A stretch of 64,000 nt of DNA from Oceanimonas smirnovii ATCC BAA-899. Its GTDB lineage: Bacteria > Pseudomonadota > Gammaproteobacteria > Enterobacterales > Aeromonadaceae. Shown here one piece after another: positions 18,095 to 63,274 of the stretch. The translations under genes were made by a program, and so were the position numbers. Below the pieces are notes generated by a model. That model did no database searches. It saw only the letters and a list, made by a program, of their open reading frames with translations, and was not told the DNA's origin. Every line of letters starts with the position of its first letter. Position 1 is the first letter of the stretch. The stretch is from assembly GCF_000381965.1 (NCBI RefSeq), contig NZ_KB908466.1, positions 1 to 64,000 of the forward strand. The letters are read 5' to 3'.

Positions 18095-18455
18095 TGGTGG
18101 AGCTGGCGGGAGTTGAACCCGCGTCCGAAAAACCTACGTCGTCGGTACTACATGCTTAGTCAGTCATTAAATTCGCCAGCTGCTGCGGACTGACACGCCA
18201 CAGACAGACTATCCTGAATTGGTTTTAACGCTTCAACCGTCAGGCACGGCATCCACGCGATCCTGTGAAGGATGACCTTCCGATTCCCTAAGTCACAGGC
18301 AAGCTAGGGCAGAAGGGCTCTCTGCAGGTTATTAAGCTGCGAGTGCGTAGTTTTCGTCGTTTGCGACTATTTTTTTGCGATTTTTTTACGAGGCCTATCG
18401 CACCTCGGCATGCACCTTGGAGTTCGAGAATCTCGTCGAATCCTGAATCAGCCCC
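18095..18455 (-). ncRNA. ssrA: Transfer-messenger RNA (tmRNA)
   Basis: Rescues stalled ribosomes with SmpB and tags the nascent protein for proteolysis. On the minus strand the RNA runs from GGGGCTGATTCAGGATTCGA to a tRNA-Ala-like end with GGTTCAACTCCCGCC and CCA encoded, 361 nt. The tag frame at 18332-18364 reads ANDENYALAA then TAA, identical to the E. coli tag. smpB lies directly upstream on the same strand. Confidence 0.97.
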
Positions 18456-35353: not shown

Positions 35354-35420
35354 ATTTCACGTTCGTCGTCTGCTCACGATGAATGGTCGCTGCGAGGCGA
35401 CAATCAGGGTACAGGTGAAT

Positions 35421-35448
35421 AGCCCCGATTTGAAAATCGGGGCTTTTT
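35421..35448 (+). terminator. Terminator between tRNA-fMet and rimP
   Basis: AGCCCCGATT and AATCGGGGCT form a 10-bp stem around TGAA, followed by T5. Read-through would be needed for the operon genes unless another promoter lies in 35449-35532. Confidence 0.85.
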
Positions 35449-35532
35449 GTTATCTGTATTCCGGCATTGGCAGGATCAATGCACTTTAAACTGGGCTGCG
35501 AGCCCTTTTTTTGTTTTTGAAGGGGGGTAGCT

Positions 35533-41627: not shown

Positions 41628-41741
41628 TTGACGGTGATTTAAGGTTGCCAAGTGCGCCTTTGCTGGTAGAATGCCGTCCTTCCTTCCGGCTGAATTAGTG
41701 ATCGGCTGGAATTCATTCATGCTTATTTTGGAGTAGACACA

Positions 41742-42011
41742 ATGTCACTAAATGCTGAAACCAAAGCCCAGATCGTTGCCGAATTCGCCCGTGGCGAAGG
41801 CGACACCGGCTCTCCCGAAGTGCAGGTAGCTCTGCTGAGCGCCCAGATCAACCACCTGCAGGGCCACTTCAAGCAGCACATCCACGATCACCACAGCCGT
41901 CGCGGTCTGCTGCGCATGGTATCCCAGCGTCGTAACCTGCTGGACTACCTGAAGCGTAAAGACGTAGAGCGCTACCGTGACCTGATCAGCAAGCTGGGCC
42001 TGCGTCGTTAA
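41742..42011 (+). CDS. rpsO: 30S ribosomal protein S15
   Basis: Primary 16S rRNA-binding protein of the small subunit. The 89 residues, the E. coli length, include [41 protein letters not shown] and end LRR. TTTTGGAG precedes the ATG. It is followed by a strong terminator and then pnp, the rpsO-pnp order of E. coli. Confidence 0.98.
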
Positions 42012-51269: not shown

Positions 51270-52540
51270 AGTTGTACAACATCAAGGATAATGCAGAAAC
51301 CATCAATTTTGCCGGGGCCGTCAAACAGGGTCTGGGCCGCGGCCAGGGCCTGTTCTTTCCGGAGCAGTTAAGCCCGCTGGCCAATGTGGATGCCTTGCTG
51401 GAGCAGCCATTGGTGCCGCGCTCCGTGGCCATTCTGCAGCATCTTATCGGTGACGAGATCCCACAAGACACCCTGACCGCCATGGTGGAGCAGGCCTTTA
51501 CCTTCCCGGCACCGCTGGTGAAGGTGGACGATCACACCTACGCCCTGGAGCTGTTCCACGGCCCGACCCTGGCGTTCAAGGACTTCGGCGGCCGTTTTAT
51601 GGCCCAGTGCCTGGCCACTTTGCGCAGCGACGGCAAGATCACCATTCTGACTGCCACCTCCGGCGACACCGGTGCCGCCGTGGCTCATGCTTTCTATGGT
51701 CTGCCCAATATCGACGTGGTTATTCTGTATCCCGAGGGCAAAATCAGCCCGTTGCAGGAAAAGCTGTTCACTACACTTGGGGGCAACATTCGCACCTTTG
51801 CGGTACAGGGCGACTTCGACGCCTGTCAGGCGCTGGTGAAGCAGGCTTTTGACGATGAAGAGCTGAAGGCCGCCGTGGGTCTGAACTCCGCCAACTCCAT
51901 TAACATCAGCCGGCTGCTGGCCCAGGTGTGCTACTACTTTGAAGCCGTGGCCGAGCTGCCCGCCGAGCAACGTCACAAGGCAGTGATTTCCGTGCCGTCC
52001 GGCAACTTCGGTAACCTGACTGCCGGACTCATCGCCAAGGCCATCGGCCTGCCGGTGAAGCGCTTTGTGGCCGCCACCAACGCCAACGATACGGTGCCGC
52101 GCTATCTGCAAAGCGGGGACTGGGCACCCAACGCCACTGTGGCTACTTTGTCCAACGCCATGGACGTCAGTCGTCCCAACAACTGGCCGCGAGTGGAAGA
52201 GCTGTGCCGGGTCAAGGGCTGGGAGCTGTCTGATATCGCCTCCGGCATGCTCAACGACGAGCAGACCGAAGATGCGCTCAAACGTCTGTTTGCACAGGGT
52301 TACCTGTGCGAGCCCCACGGTGCCATCGCCTGGGATCTGCTTAACAAGGAGCGGGGCAAGGACGAAGTGGGCATTTTTCTGTGTACTGCCCATCCGGCCA
52401 AGTTCAAGGAAAGTGTTGACCGTATTCTGGAGCAGGATGTTGAACTGCCGGGACCACTGGCCAAGCATAATGCCATGGAGTCCCTGTCCGAGACCATTGC
52501 TGCCGATTTCGCCGTGCTGAAAGCGAAAATGATGGGCTGA
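51266..52540 (+). CDS. thrC: Threonine synthase ThrC
   Basis: PLP enzyme converting phosphohomoserine to threonine. The PLP lysine lies in [15 protein letters not shown], and the phosphate-binding regions are [15 protein letters not shown] and [15 protein letters not shown] 51266 (MKLYNIKDN) gives 424 residues (E. coli 428); the longer frame from 51212 is inside thrB and rejected. It ends the operon before a strong terminator. Confidence 0.98.
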
Positions 52541-52560
52541 GGCCAACACCTTTAGTCTGT

Positions 52561-52590
52561 AAAAATGCCGGGCAAGCCCGGCATTTTTTT
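52561..52590 (+). terminator. Terminator of the thr operon
   Basis: AAAAATGCCGGG and CCCGGCATTTTT pair around CAAG, followed by TT. Confidence 0.9.
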
Positions 52591-52629
52591 GCTATTCCCT
52601 AATCCCCATTCCCTATTCCCCTTATTCTT

Positions 52630-52647
52630 TGTAAGCGATCTCTCAAA
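52630..52647 (+). promoter_or_regulatory. Possible GacA/UvrY box upstream of the CsrB-like RNA
   Basis: TGTAAG-N6-CTCAAA compared with the Gac box TGTAAG-N6-CTTACA: first half perfect, second half 4 of 6. It lies about 165 bases before the predicted RNA start, the distance usual for GacA-activated csr/rsm RNA genes. Confidence 0.5.
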
Positions 52648-52770
52648 GCAGTCTGGGAAAAGGCGCTTTTGATATATGGTTTTAGCTGCATCTTTTTATA
52701 AGTATATGAATTTTAATGCTTTTAATTTTAAGGTTGAAATCTGAGCAGTCAGGTTCGTGCCTGGCCTGCA

Positions 52771-52798
52771 TTGCTCCCGGAACAGGGTAAGGTATAGT
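52771..52798 (+). promoter_or_regulatory. Predicted promoter of the CsrB-like RNA
   Basis: TTGCTC, a 16-base spacer and TATAGT. The start would be near 52805. Confidence 0.55.
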
Positions 52799-52804
52799 TA
52801 TTTC

Positions 52805-53084
52805 CAGAAGGAACACAGTGCTGGCAGGCAAGCCGGCAGCCAGGAACGGCAAAGGACAAGGTCCGGGAAGACCAAGGGGACAGGCAAGGGAACGCCAAGG
52901 GATACCTTCAGGACGAAGCGGTTGGTTGCAGGAGCGCAGCCATTCATGGAAGAGCCAGGGACAAGCCCGACGGAGCGGGAAAGGGGAAGACCCGGAGCGG
53001 TCAGGTCAGGGAATGCAGGGAGCAACTCAGGTTCAGGAAGGAGCCGACGACACCAAAAGGGGCAGCCACTGGCTGCCCCTTTTC
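52805..53084 (+). ncRNA. csrB: CsrB-family CsrA-sequestering small RNA (candidate)
   Basis: About 280 nt carrying 19 GGA triplets between 52810 and 53042, most as AGGA, AGGGA or GGGA. Several sit in loops of short stems, the preferred CsrA site: GGTC-CGGGAA-GACC (52860-52873), CTTC-AGGAC-GAAG, and GGTTGC-AGGAGC-GCAGCC. It ends with a very strong terminator and has its own promoter. A 110-codon frame crosses it but is a low-complexity Gly/Arg/Ser-rich translation without family likeness, so RNA is the better reading. The role, by family, is to bind and titrate the translational regulator CsrA. It could equally be named csrC. Exact ends are inferred. Confidence 0.85.
53055..53083 (+). terminator. 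Terminator of the CsrB-like RNA
   Basis: AAAAGGGGCAGCC and GGCTGCCCCTTTT form a perfect 13-bp stem around ACT. On the minus strand it lies just after the end of the hydrolase gene and could serve that gene too only if positioned downstream, which it is (gene ends at 53093). Confidence 0.92.
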
Positions 53085-53092
53085 TATGACGC

Positions 53093-54112
53093 TCACATGG
53101 CCGGCGGCTGAATATCCAGCTCGTCCACAAAGCGCTCTACCGTCAGCTCCGCCTGTTTGATCTCATCAAACAGGGCAATATGGCAGATGGCATCGCCTTC
53201 ATTCACCAGCGGCATGGTCAGGCTGCCAATCACAATACCGCTGCGCGGAGCCACAATAAGACACTGCTCGGCTCCCAAAGGAGCGCTGATAGTCCCCAGA
53301 ATATCCCCCTTGCGAATACGATCTCCCAGCCGTACCTTGAGGTGCAGCAGGCCGTCGTGCTCGGCCCGTATCCAGGTACTGCTACGGGCAATAATGGCCT
53401 CGCTGGCAGACTTGACCGTGCTGCTTTTCAGCATGCCCAGGCCACGCATCACGCGAATCACGCCACGCACGCCCGCCTTGATGGGCAAAGGGTCAAAGCG
53501 CAGTGCCTCACCGGCCTCATAGAGGATCACCGGCACCCCCTGAGCTTCTGCCACTGCCCTGAGTGAGCCATCGCGAATGCTGGCATCAAGAATAATGGGT
53601 GCACCAAAATTTTCTGCCATTTGCCGGGTTACCGGGCAGTCGAGCTGAGCCCGTATCTGGGGCAGATTGGCCCTGTGAATGGCCCCCGTGTGCAAGTCGA
53701 TAATATGACTGCATTTGCTGACAATTTCATTGACAAAAAAGTGCGCCACCCGGGCCCCCAGCGAGCCTTTTTCCGAGCCGGGAAAACAGCGATTCAGATC
53801 GCGCCGATCCGGCAGATAGCGTGATTTGTGAATAAAACCAAATACGTTGACCACAGGCACGGCCACCAGAGTGCCTTTCAGCCGGGCCGGATTGATTTTC
53901 GCCAGCACCTGATTGACTACTTCAATACCGTTCAGTTCATCACCGTGAATGGCGGCACACAGCAACAACACCGGCCCCGGCTGCTTGCCGTTCACTACTT
54001 CCACCGGTACTGTCAGTGGCGACTGGGTATAAAGCTGGGCCAGCGCCAGCTGCATGGTCCGGCGCTGGCCTGCCGGCACTGACTGACCCGCCAGTTCAAA
54101 GTGATGGCTCAT
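53093..54112 (-). CDS. Succinylglutamate desuccinylase / aspartoacylase-family zinc hydrolase
   Basis: M14-type zinc amidohydrolase of 339 residues. Zinc and catalytic motifs are HGDELNG (HxxE) and DLHTGA, with NRCFPGSEKG between them. The C-terminal part is a beta-barrel extension (ERSSTWIRAEHDGLL-like region, then RSGIVIG). It does not look like AstE of arginine catabolism, and no ast genes are near. It starts inside the last codon of rimK (ATG/TGA overlap), so the two are co-translated. By context it may act on glutamate or amino-acid conjugates made by RimK; this is inference. Confidence 0.82.
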   Translation of the reverse strand: MSHHFELAGQSVPAGQRRTMQLALAQLYTQSPLTVPVEVVNGKQPGPVLLLCAAIHGDELNGIEVVNQVLAKINPARLKGTLVAVPVVNVFGFIHKSRYLPDRRDLNRCFPGSEKGSLGARVAHFFVNEIVSKCSHIIDLHTGAIHRANLPQIRAQLDCPVTRQMAENFGAPIILDASIRDGSLRAVAEAQGVPVILYEAGEALRFDPLPIKAGVRGVIRVMRGLGMLKSSTVKSASEAIIARSSTWIRAEHDGLLHLKVRLGDRIRKGDILGTISAPLGAEQCLIVAPRSGIVIGSLTMPLVNEGDAICHIALFDEIKQAELTVERFVDELDIQPPAM

Positions 54113-63074: not shown

Positions 63075-63081
63075 AAATAGG

Positions 63082-63258
63082 GTCCCAGGGTGCCGTTGCG
63101 AGTGTTAGTCCTTGAACCCGTCGGTTCAAGGCGGAACTCCGGTATCCGCCGCAGGCGTCTCGGTCGGGCCGAGCATGCTCAATAGCGAATAACACGGCGT
63201 TCCTGTGCTGTTGATATCGGCTCAGGGACACCACTCACTGACGCACACCCCAGGGAAA
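63082..63258 (-). ncRNA. ssrS: 6S RNA
   Basis: Regulator that binds sigma-70 RNA polymerase in stationary phase. On the minus strand the ends pair (TTCCCTGGG with CCCTGGGA). The conserved TGAGCCGATAT and GAGCATGCTCGG segments flank the central bubble, and the CCTTGAACC/GGTTCAAGG hairpin is present near the 3' side. Length is about 177 nt (E. coli 184); the exact ends are inferred. It lies between zapA and ygfA as in E. coli. Confidence 0.93.
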
Positions 63259-63274
63259 ACAAATTGTACGGACC

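Follow-up and report, generated by a model that had tools for sequence, protein, structure and literature searches.

The window (the whole 64-kb stretch of DNA that was analyzed) contains, on the 3' side of thrC and on the same strand, a putative promoter, a GGA-rich region and a rho-independent terminator (Table 1). A hairpin followed by a run of T's divides thrC from these features, and a similar hairpin is visible after thrC in Oceanimonas-type relatives. Between this hairpin and an upstream inverted repeat lies an ATTCCCC-rich tract (52590-52625), a 22-nt piece of which (52600-52621) is repeated exactly at G000:C1:71786 and in G003:C23. On the other side, on the minus strand, is a gene (53093-54112) for an AstE/AspA-domain protein that adjoins rimK; it passes a Pfam domain cut-off and no NCBIfam equivalog cut-off. 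The terminator of the RNA gene is possibly bidirectional and could also serve the opposing gene. A sequence-only reading of this DNA had proposed a CsrB-type RNA here, based on 19 GGA triplets in about 235 bases, several of them in the loops of short stems, a terminator with a 13-bp stem, a TTGCTC-N16-TATAGT promoter and a TGTAAG-N6-CTCAAA box. All of these are present, the box ~165 bp 5' of the expected start.

Table 1. Predicted features of the thrC-linked RNA locus (positions in the window).
Feature	Position	Strand	Remarks
thrC terminator	52566..52590	+	GC-rich hairpin + T7; identified by eye; divides thrC from the RNA gene
UvrY/GacA-type inverted repeat, TTGTAAGCGATCTCTCAA	52629..52646	+	predicted; in the 18-nt register of the E. 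coli site, 52630-52647
IHF-like site position	52699..52711	+	position conserved in relatives; 2 mismatches in the window copy
Promoter, TTGCTC-N16-TATAGT	52771..52798	+	from sequence; TTGCTC 52771-52776, TATAGT 52793-52798
CsrB-type small RNA gene (predicted)	52805..53083	+	~279 nt; start inferred from the -10; end = T run
Rho-independent terminator	53055..53083	+	13-bp stem, 3-nt loop; arms AAAAGGGGCAGCC (53055-53067) and GGCTGCCCCTTTT (53071-53083)

The GGA triplets, all at 52810-53042, and the predicted fold set this region apart. In 1000 mononucleotide shuffles of the predicted RNA, the GGA count always stayed below 19 (mean 10.9, SD 2.5, maximum 18), and the highest count per 235 nt elsewhere in the window, in steps of 5, is 11 on the plus strand and 12 on the minus strand. 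The shuffle test covered 16 of the 17 thrC-linked sequences that we found. In five of the 16, the window copy not among these, one or more of 1000 shuffles had as many GGAs as observed or more, because the RNAs are purine-rich. Folding of 52805-53085 gives a structure better than those of all 200 dinucleotide shuffles (z = -2.97).

A consensus fold of the 17 thrC-linked sequences, restricted to 12 local hairpins with 56 pairs, points to conservation of the structure. Consensus pairs are kept in 95.5% of the cells of the alignment, a percentage that is favored because the fold was derived from the same alignment. Changes on both sides of a pair, which occur in 22 of the 56, are better evidence, and their count can be inflated by the relatedness of the sequences. 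None of 500 shuffles matched the percentage paired or the double changes; for the number of pair types, two shuffles did so. Slid controls paired in at most 47.3% of cells. The weakest helix (helix 6) is paired in 77.9% of cells and the terminator helix (helix 12) in 100%. In the region shared with the window copy, each of the eight internal hairpins carries a GGA in its loop in 14 or more of the 17 sequences, and 15 of the 19 window GGAs occur in 14 or more of these sequences. We conclude that the predicted window RNA is non-coding, with a conserved secondary structure.

The window RNA is related to known CsrB RNAs, despite having no Rfam match at its position at the gathering threshold. In a relaxed search of 52500-53300, the best match is CsrB (RF00018), over the full length of the model (1-356), at 25.8 bits (E = 4e-5), below the gathering score of 71 bits. 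By itself this match says little, because at E ≤ 10 RF00018 also matches 8 of 14 control genomes, some of them archaeal; at E ≤ 0.01, E. coli is the only control genome matched. All 17 thrC-linked copies match RF00018 at E ≤ 0.01, and one of them (G013, 76.1 bits) is over the cut-off. We also built a covariance model, R1, for which the 3' half of each of the 17 thrC-linked RNAs was the only input, and searched it with stricter filters in 75 genomes of the family, sorting the matches by score (complete at the top). R1 recovers the 17 RNAs at 120.8-161.9 bits and, from 94.7 bits down, further csrB-like genes, both in the genus and in the family, including csrB genes with RF00018 scores as high as 131.7 bits. 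It matches at E ≤ 1e-4 in at least 68 of the 75 genomes, and outside the genus there is no match above 83.4 bits. The gap in R1 scores sharply separates the thrC type, which 17 of the 23 genus genomes have. Based on this evidence, which goes beyond the Rfam threshold, we conclude that the predicted RNA is homologous to recognized csrB genes.

Taken with the conserved promoter, box, GGA loops and terminator, the covariation, and the frameshifts described below, the covariance match supports the original CsrB-type reading. We regard it as almost certain that ~52805-53083 on the plus strand is a stand-alone CsrB-type small RNA gene. As sequence features, it has its own promoter with a UvrY/GacA-type inverted repeat and its own intrinsic terminator.

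The genome has two CsrB-like genes besides the predicted window RNA, which thus makes a third. RF00018 scores these two at 84.1 and 46.6 bits; they are at G000:C5 and G000:C8, and R1 finds them as well. At E ≤ 0.01, R1 has six matches in this genome: the three CsrB-like RNAs, the reverse strand of the window terminator (31.2 bits) and two weak matches (25.1 and 21.7 bits). The two siblings have the same box, GGA design and 3' segment as the window RNA and differ from it in belonging to separate synteny groups. By their flanking genes, the RNAs of the genus form three groups: one beside sseA-like and DUF2007-like genes, one beside a dac-like gene (and an MGMT-like gene where found) and one beside thrC. 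We take the names sseA-like, DUF2007-like, dac-like and MGMT-like from a reading of the ORFs rather than from a family test. A weak third RF00018 match in one genus genome (L122 in G017, 23.3 bits) was taken as chance: its GGAs never exceed 8 per 250 nt, and even with 5 mismatches allowed it has no box. Elsewhere, CsrB matches occur in other arrangements: five in tandem, ~700 nt apart, at G033:C1:4533806-4536939, and overlapping partial matches at G025:C1:595028-595758.

In a tree of 60 RNAs, the 17 thrC copies lie on one side of a branch with support of 100/100, with the caveat that long branches join an Aeromonas-type row to the thrC group. The tree was midpoint-rooted and left out L122 and the MGMT/dac-locus copies of G005, G014 and G015. 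The two other locus groups were not recovered as single groups, and the tree leaves the source sibling of the thrC copy undistinguished. The simplest account is that the thrC copy probably arose once, when a csrB-type gene was duplicated into the 3' flank of thrC in an ancestor of the genus.

The location beside thrC is typical of the genus. The RNA adjoins thrC, on its 3' side and on the same strand, in 17 of the 21 congeneric genomes with a located thrC. No CsrB-type RNA was found in the thrC flank of the other four (G005, G011, G014, G017), and thrC itself was not found at E ≤ 1e-50 in G009 and G022, which are two of the six genus genomes without the thrC-linked RNA. When 41 genomes were searched at the DNA level, relatives of the window RNA turned up in the same genus. 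Named matches to the RNA are to Oceanimonas, Zobellella and Oceanisphaera. Because a similar RF00018 search gave the window copy itself no better than E = 0.0021, scans for GGA density, the box and R1 were added outside the genus. There, 52 thrC loci were located and 24 were examined. None of the 24 has the RNA beside it: the flanks have no CsrB match, at most 11 GGAs per 250 nt (vs 19) and a best box with 5 mismatches. The sequence-only reading had taken thrC to be a non-standard location. This holds at the 24 loci outside the genus, but within the genus the 3' flank of thrC is the usual site. It is well supported that the predicted RNA is a divergent, lineage-specific Csr RNA paralogue at a lineage-specific site, and that its kind of RNA is already known.

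The surroundings of the RNA vary. In L042-L045 and L050, the RNA is kept while the downstream neighbor changes: the gene after it starts MSQALDELLTLL... and is presumably TesB-like, instead of AstE-like. In L047-L049, repeated GGACACCCATC / GATGGGTGTCC units that resemble a dispersed palindromic repeat lie between thrC and the RNA. A motif scan of genome contigs gave 15 stretches, 12 of them labeled Oceanimonas, Oceanisphaera or Zobellella. L078, labeled an uncultured Aeromonas MAG, has what looks by eye like a CsrB-type gene. Two stretches are Lachnospiraceae MAGs (L065, L068), and in L065 no GGA-rich RNA was seen by eye around the motif match. A search of a plasmid collection gave no match and was uninformative.

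Upstream of the RNA, a box, TTGTAAGAGATCTCTCAA, is found with 0-3 mismatches at 145-147 bp before the -10 in all 17 thrC-linked loci (146 bp in the window), in a search that covered 135-160 bp before the -10. It matches the inverted repeat TGTGAGAGATCTCTTACA, the UvrY site of E. coli csrB, which is described as centered at -183/-182 (PMC4682653, in part). Across the genome of the window, the pattern TGTRNGMGATCTCTYA matches exactly at three places, and each of the CsrB-like RNAs has one of them upstream. As these same sites served to write the pattern, the finding is the absence of further ones; ~0.05 sites are expected by chance by our own arithmetic, and a backward control of the pattern found no sites in this genome. 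At sibling loci in other genus genomes the box is often present, and it is weak or missing at several (L030, L118, L017, L018). At the sseA-like locus of L017, L018, L021 and L030, the box is altered (TTGTAAGAGATCCGCCCG in three) or there is none within 5 mismatches; the genomes of these loci (G005, G014, G011 and G017) are also without the thrC copy. Between box and promoter, an IHF-like site at a fixed position has a perfect consensus in 4 of the 17 loci and is poor in the window. The best binding of UvrY to csrB is reported to need IHF (PMC4682653, in part), and a UvrY consensus at sRNA promoters has been described as not clearly understood (PMC7250320, in part).

The window copy is shorter than its relatives at the 5' end. 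It is without ~80 nt (77-86 by alignment) that are present in all 16 relatives, so its promoter abuts sequence that is internal in them. The loss may be a specialization or the start of decay. We propose, tentatively and with somewhat less than even confidence, that the thrC-linked RNAs are a genus-specific third group of Csr RNAs, almost all below the Rfam threshold, and that the copy in this species shed a 5' GGA domain and thereby became a specialized CsrA sponge with a capacity or turnover unlike that of its two siblings. Decay is possible because all relatives have the missing ~80 nt: the window copy could be a former CsrB-type gene whose 5' domain is gone and which is disappearing from this species. 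It also has the fewest GGAs of the 16 copies counted (19 vs 22-28 in the 15 others), and four congeneric genomes have no copy beside thrC. However, the box, its spacing, the -10, the hairpins and the terminator are intact, which speaks for a functional copy; the closest relatives are 85-88% identical to it over the remaining part, and most of its GGAs are conserved, as noted above. We therefore consider decay improbable.

Two other explanations are still less probable. Because the RNA is 3' of thrC and on the same strand in 17 genomes, it could be derived from the thrC 3' UTR, or be a riboregulator of thrC, and not a CsrA sponge. This is very unlikely: thrC ends in a separate terminator, the RNA is preceded by a box and promoter of its own, the two paralogues that share this box sit at unrelated loci in the same genome, and csrB-type genes are found away from thrC elsewhere in the family, for example in G077. 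To a small protein gene, read as 110 codons from a GTG at 52757 (to 53089), 97 codons from 52818 or 110 codons on the minus strand, we give almost no credence and reject it, because each of the 16 relatives has 1-12 frameshifting indels relative to the window copy (gap placement being aligner-dependent) and a Pfam search of the three overlapping ORFs gave no match. The sequence-only reading had anticipated that the GTG ORF would be miscalled, and had named conservation of the 110-codon protein as evidence against an RNA; the frameshifts run counter to such conservation. All three forward frames are indeed stop-free in the 285 nt after the -10, but stops are scarce in GGA-rich RNA by composition, and open frames mean little, because one forward frame is free of stops in 5 of the 16 relatives too. 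Conservation instead tracks paired columns and GGAs, and the ORFs extend into the terminator.

The window RNA is like E. coli CsrB (RF00018) in its full-length covariance match, GGA hairpin loops, conserved 3' GCAGGGAGCA segment, terminator and far-upstream UvrY inverted repeat. It differs in length (~279 nt vs 369 nt) and in location, as E. coli csrB is between syd and yqcC. Several paralogues in conserved synteny groups are also described in Vibrio (CsrB/C/D of V. cholerae, PMC6550530, in part; csrB1-4 of V. tasmaniensis, PMC6262261, in part), where the several RNAs of a species are explained by duplication and relocation (PMC6262261, in part). The three Csr RNAs of V. cholerae are reported to be not fully redundant, and each has a predicted VarA site (PMC6550530, in part). 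The genus-specific loci in Vibrio are different from the thrC, sseA-like and dac/MGMT-like loci described here. Pf1 of Pseudoalteromonas is, like the window RNA, a genus-restricted CsrB-type RNA, and has ~21 GGAs, a GacA-type site and little similarity to E. coli CsrB; it is reported to bind CsrA and to affect glycogen (PMC9927453, in part). Unlike the window RNA, which is known from sequence, Pf1 has been bench-tested, and it is not a thrC-linked third paralogue (PMC9927453, in part). Literature searches found nothing joining Oceanimonas with csrB or csrA, Zobellella with csrA, or Oceanisphaera with csrB, and among papers pairing CsrB with thrC, none concerns this locus, judged by titles and the openings of abstracts.

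The genome encodes the partners that such an RNA would need. CsrA is encoded once. UvrY shares 74% identity with its E. coli counterpart and scores 422 bits in the NCBIfam UvrY/SirA/GacA equivalog (cut-off 280), and BarA scores 1213 bits in its equivalog (cut-off 890). We postulate that UvrY, phosphorylated by BarA, would bind the inverted repeat (52629-52647), with the AT-rich spacer probably bent by IHF, and would activate the promoter. The ~279-nt RNA would present at least 8 GGA-bearing hairpin loops and single-stranded GGAs, could bind several CsrA dimers and so draw CsrA off its mRNA targets. By this route, the predicted RNA very probably sequesters CsrA.

If so, the Csr circuit in these related marine Aeromonadaceae probably has three RNAs, of which the Rfam cut-off reports one in the genome of the window. 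The box, occurring once per RNA in this genome, could be a simple marker for Csr RNAs that are too divergent for the curated model. We suspect that the window copy could also serve as a natural 5' truncation for testing how the size of a Csr RNA affects its capacity for CsrA. Other Rfam matches in the window are to tmRNA (18095-18455, minus strand), 6S RNA (63078-63259, minus strand), an S15 leader (41682-41798, plus strand), a rimP leader (35388-35512, plus strand) and two tRNAs.
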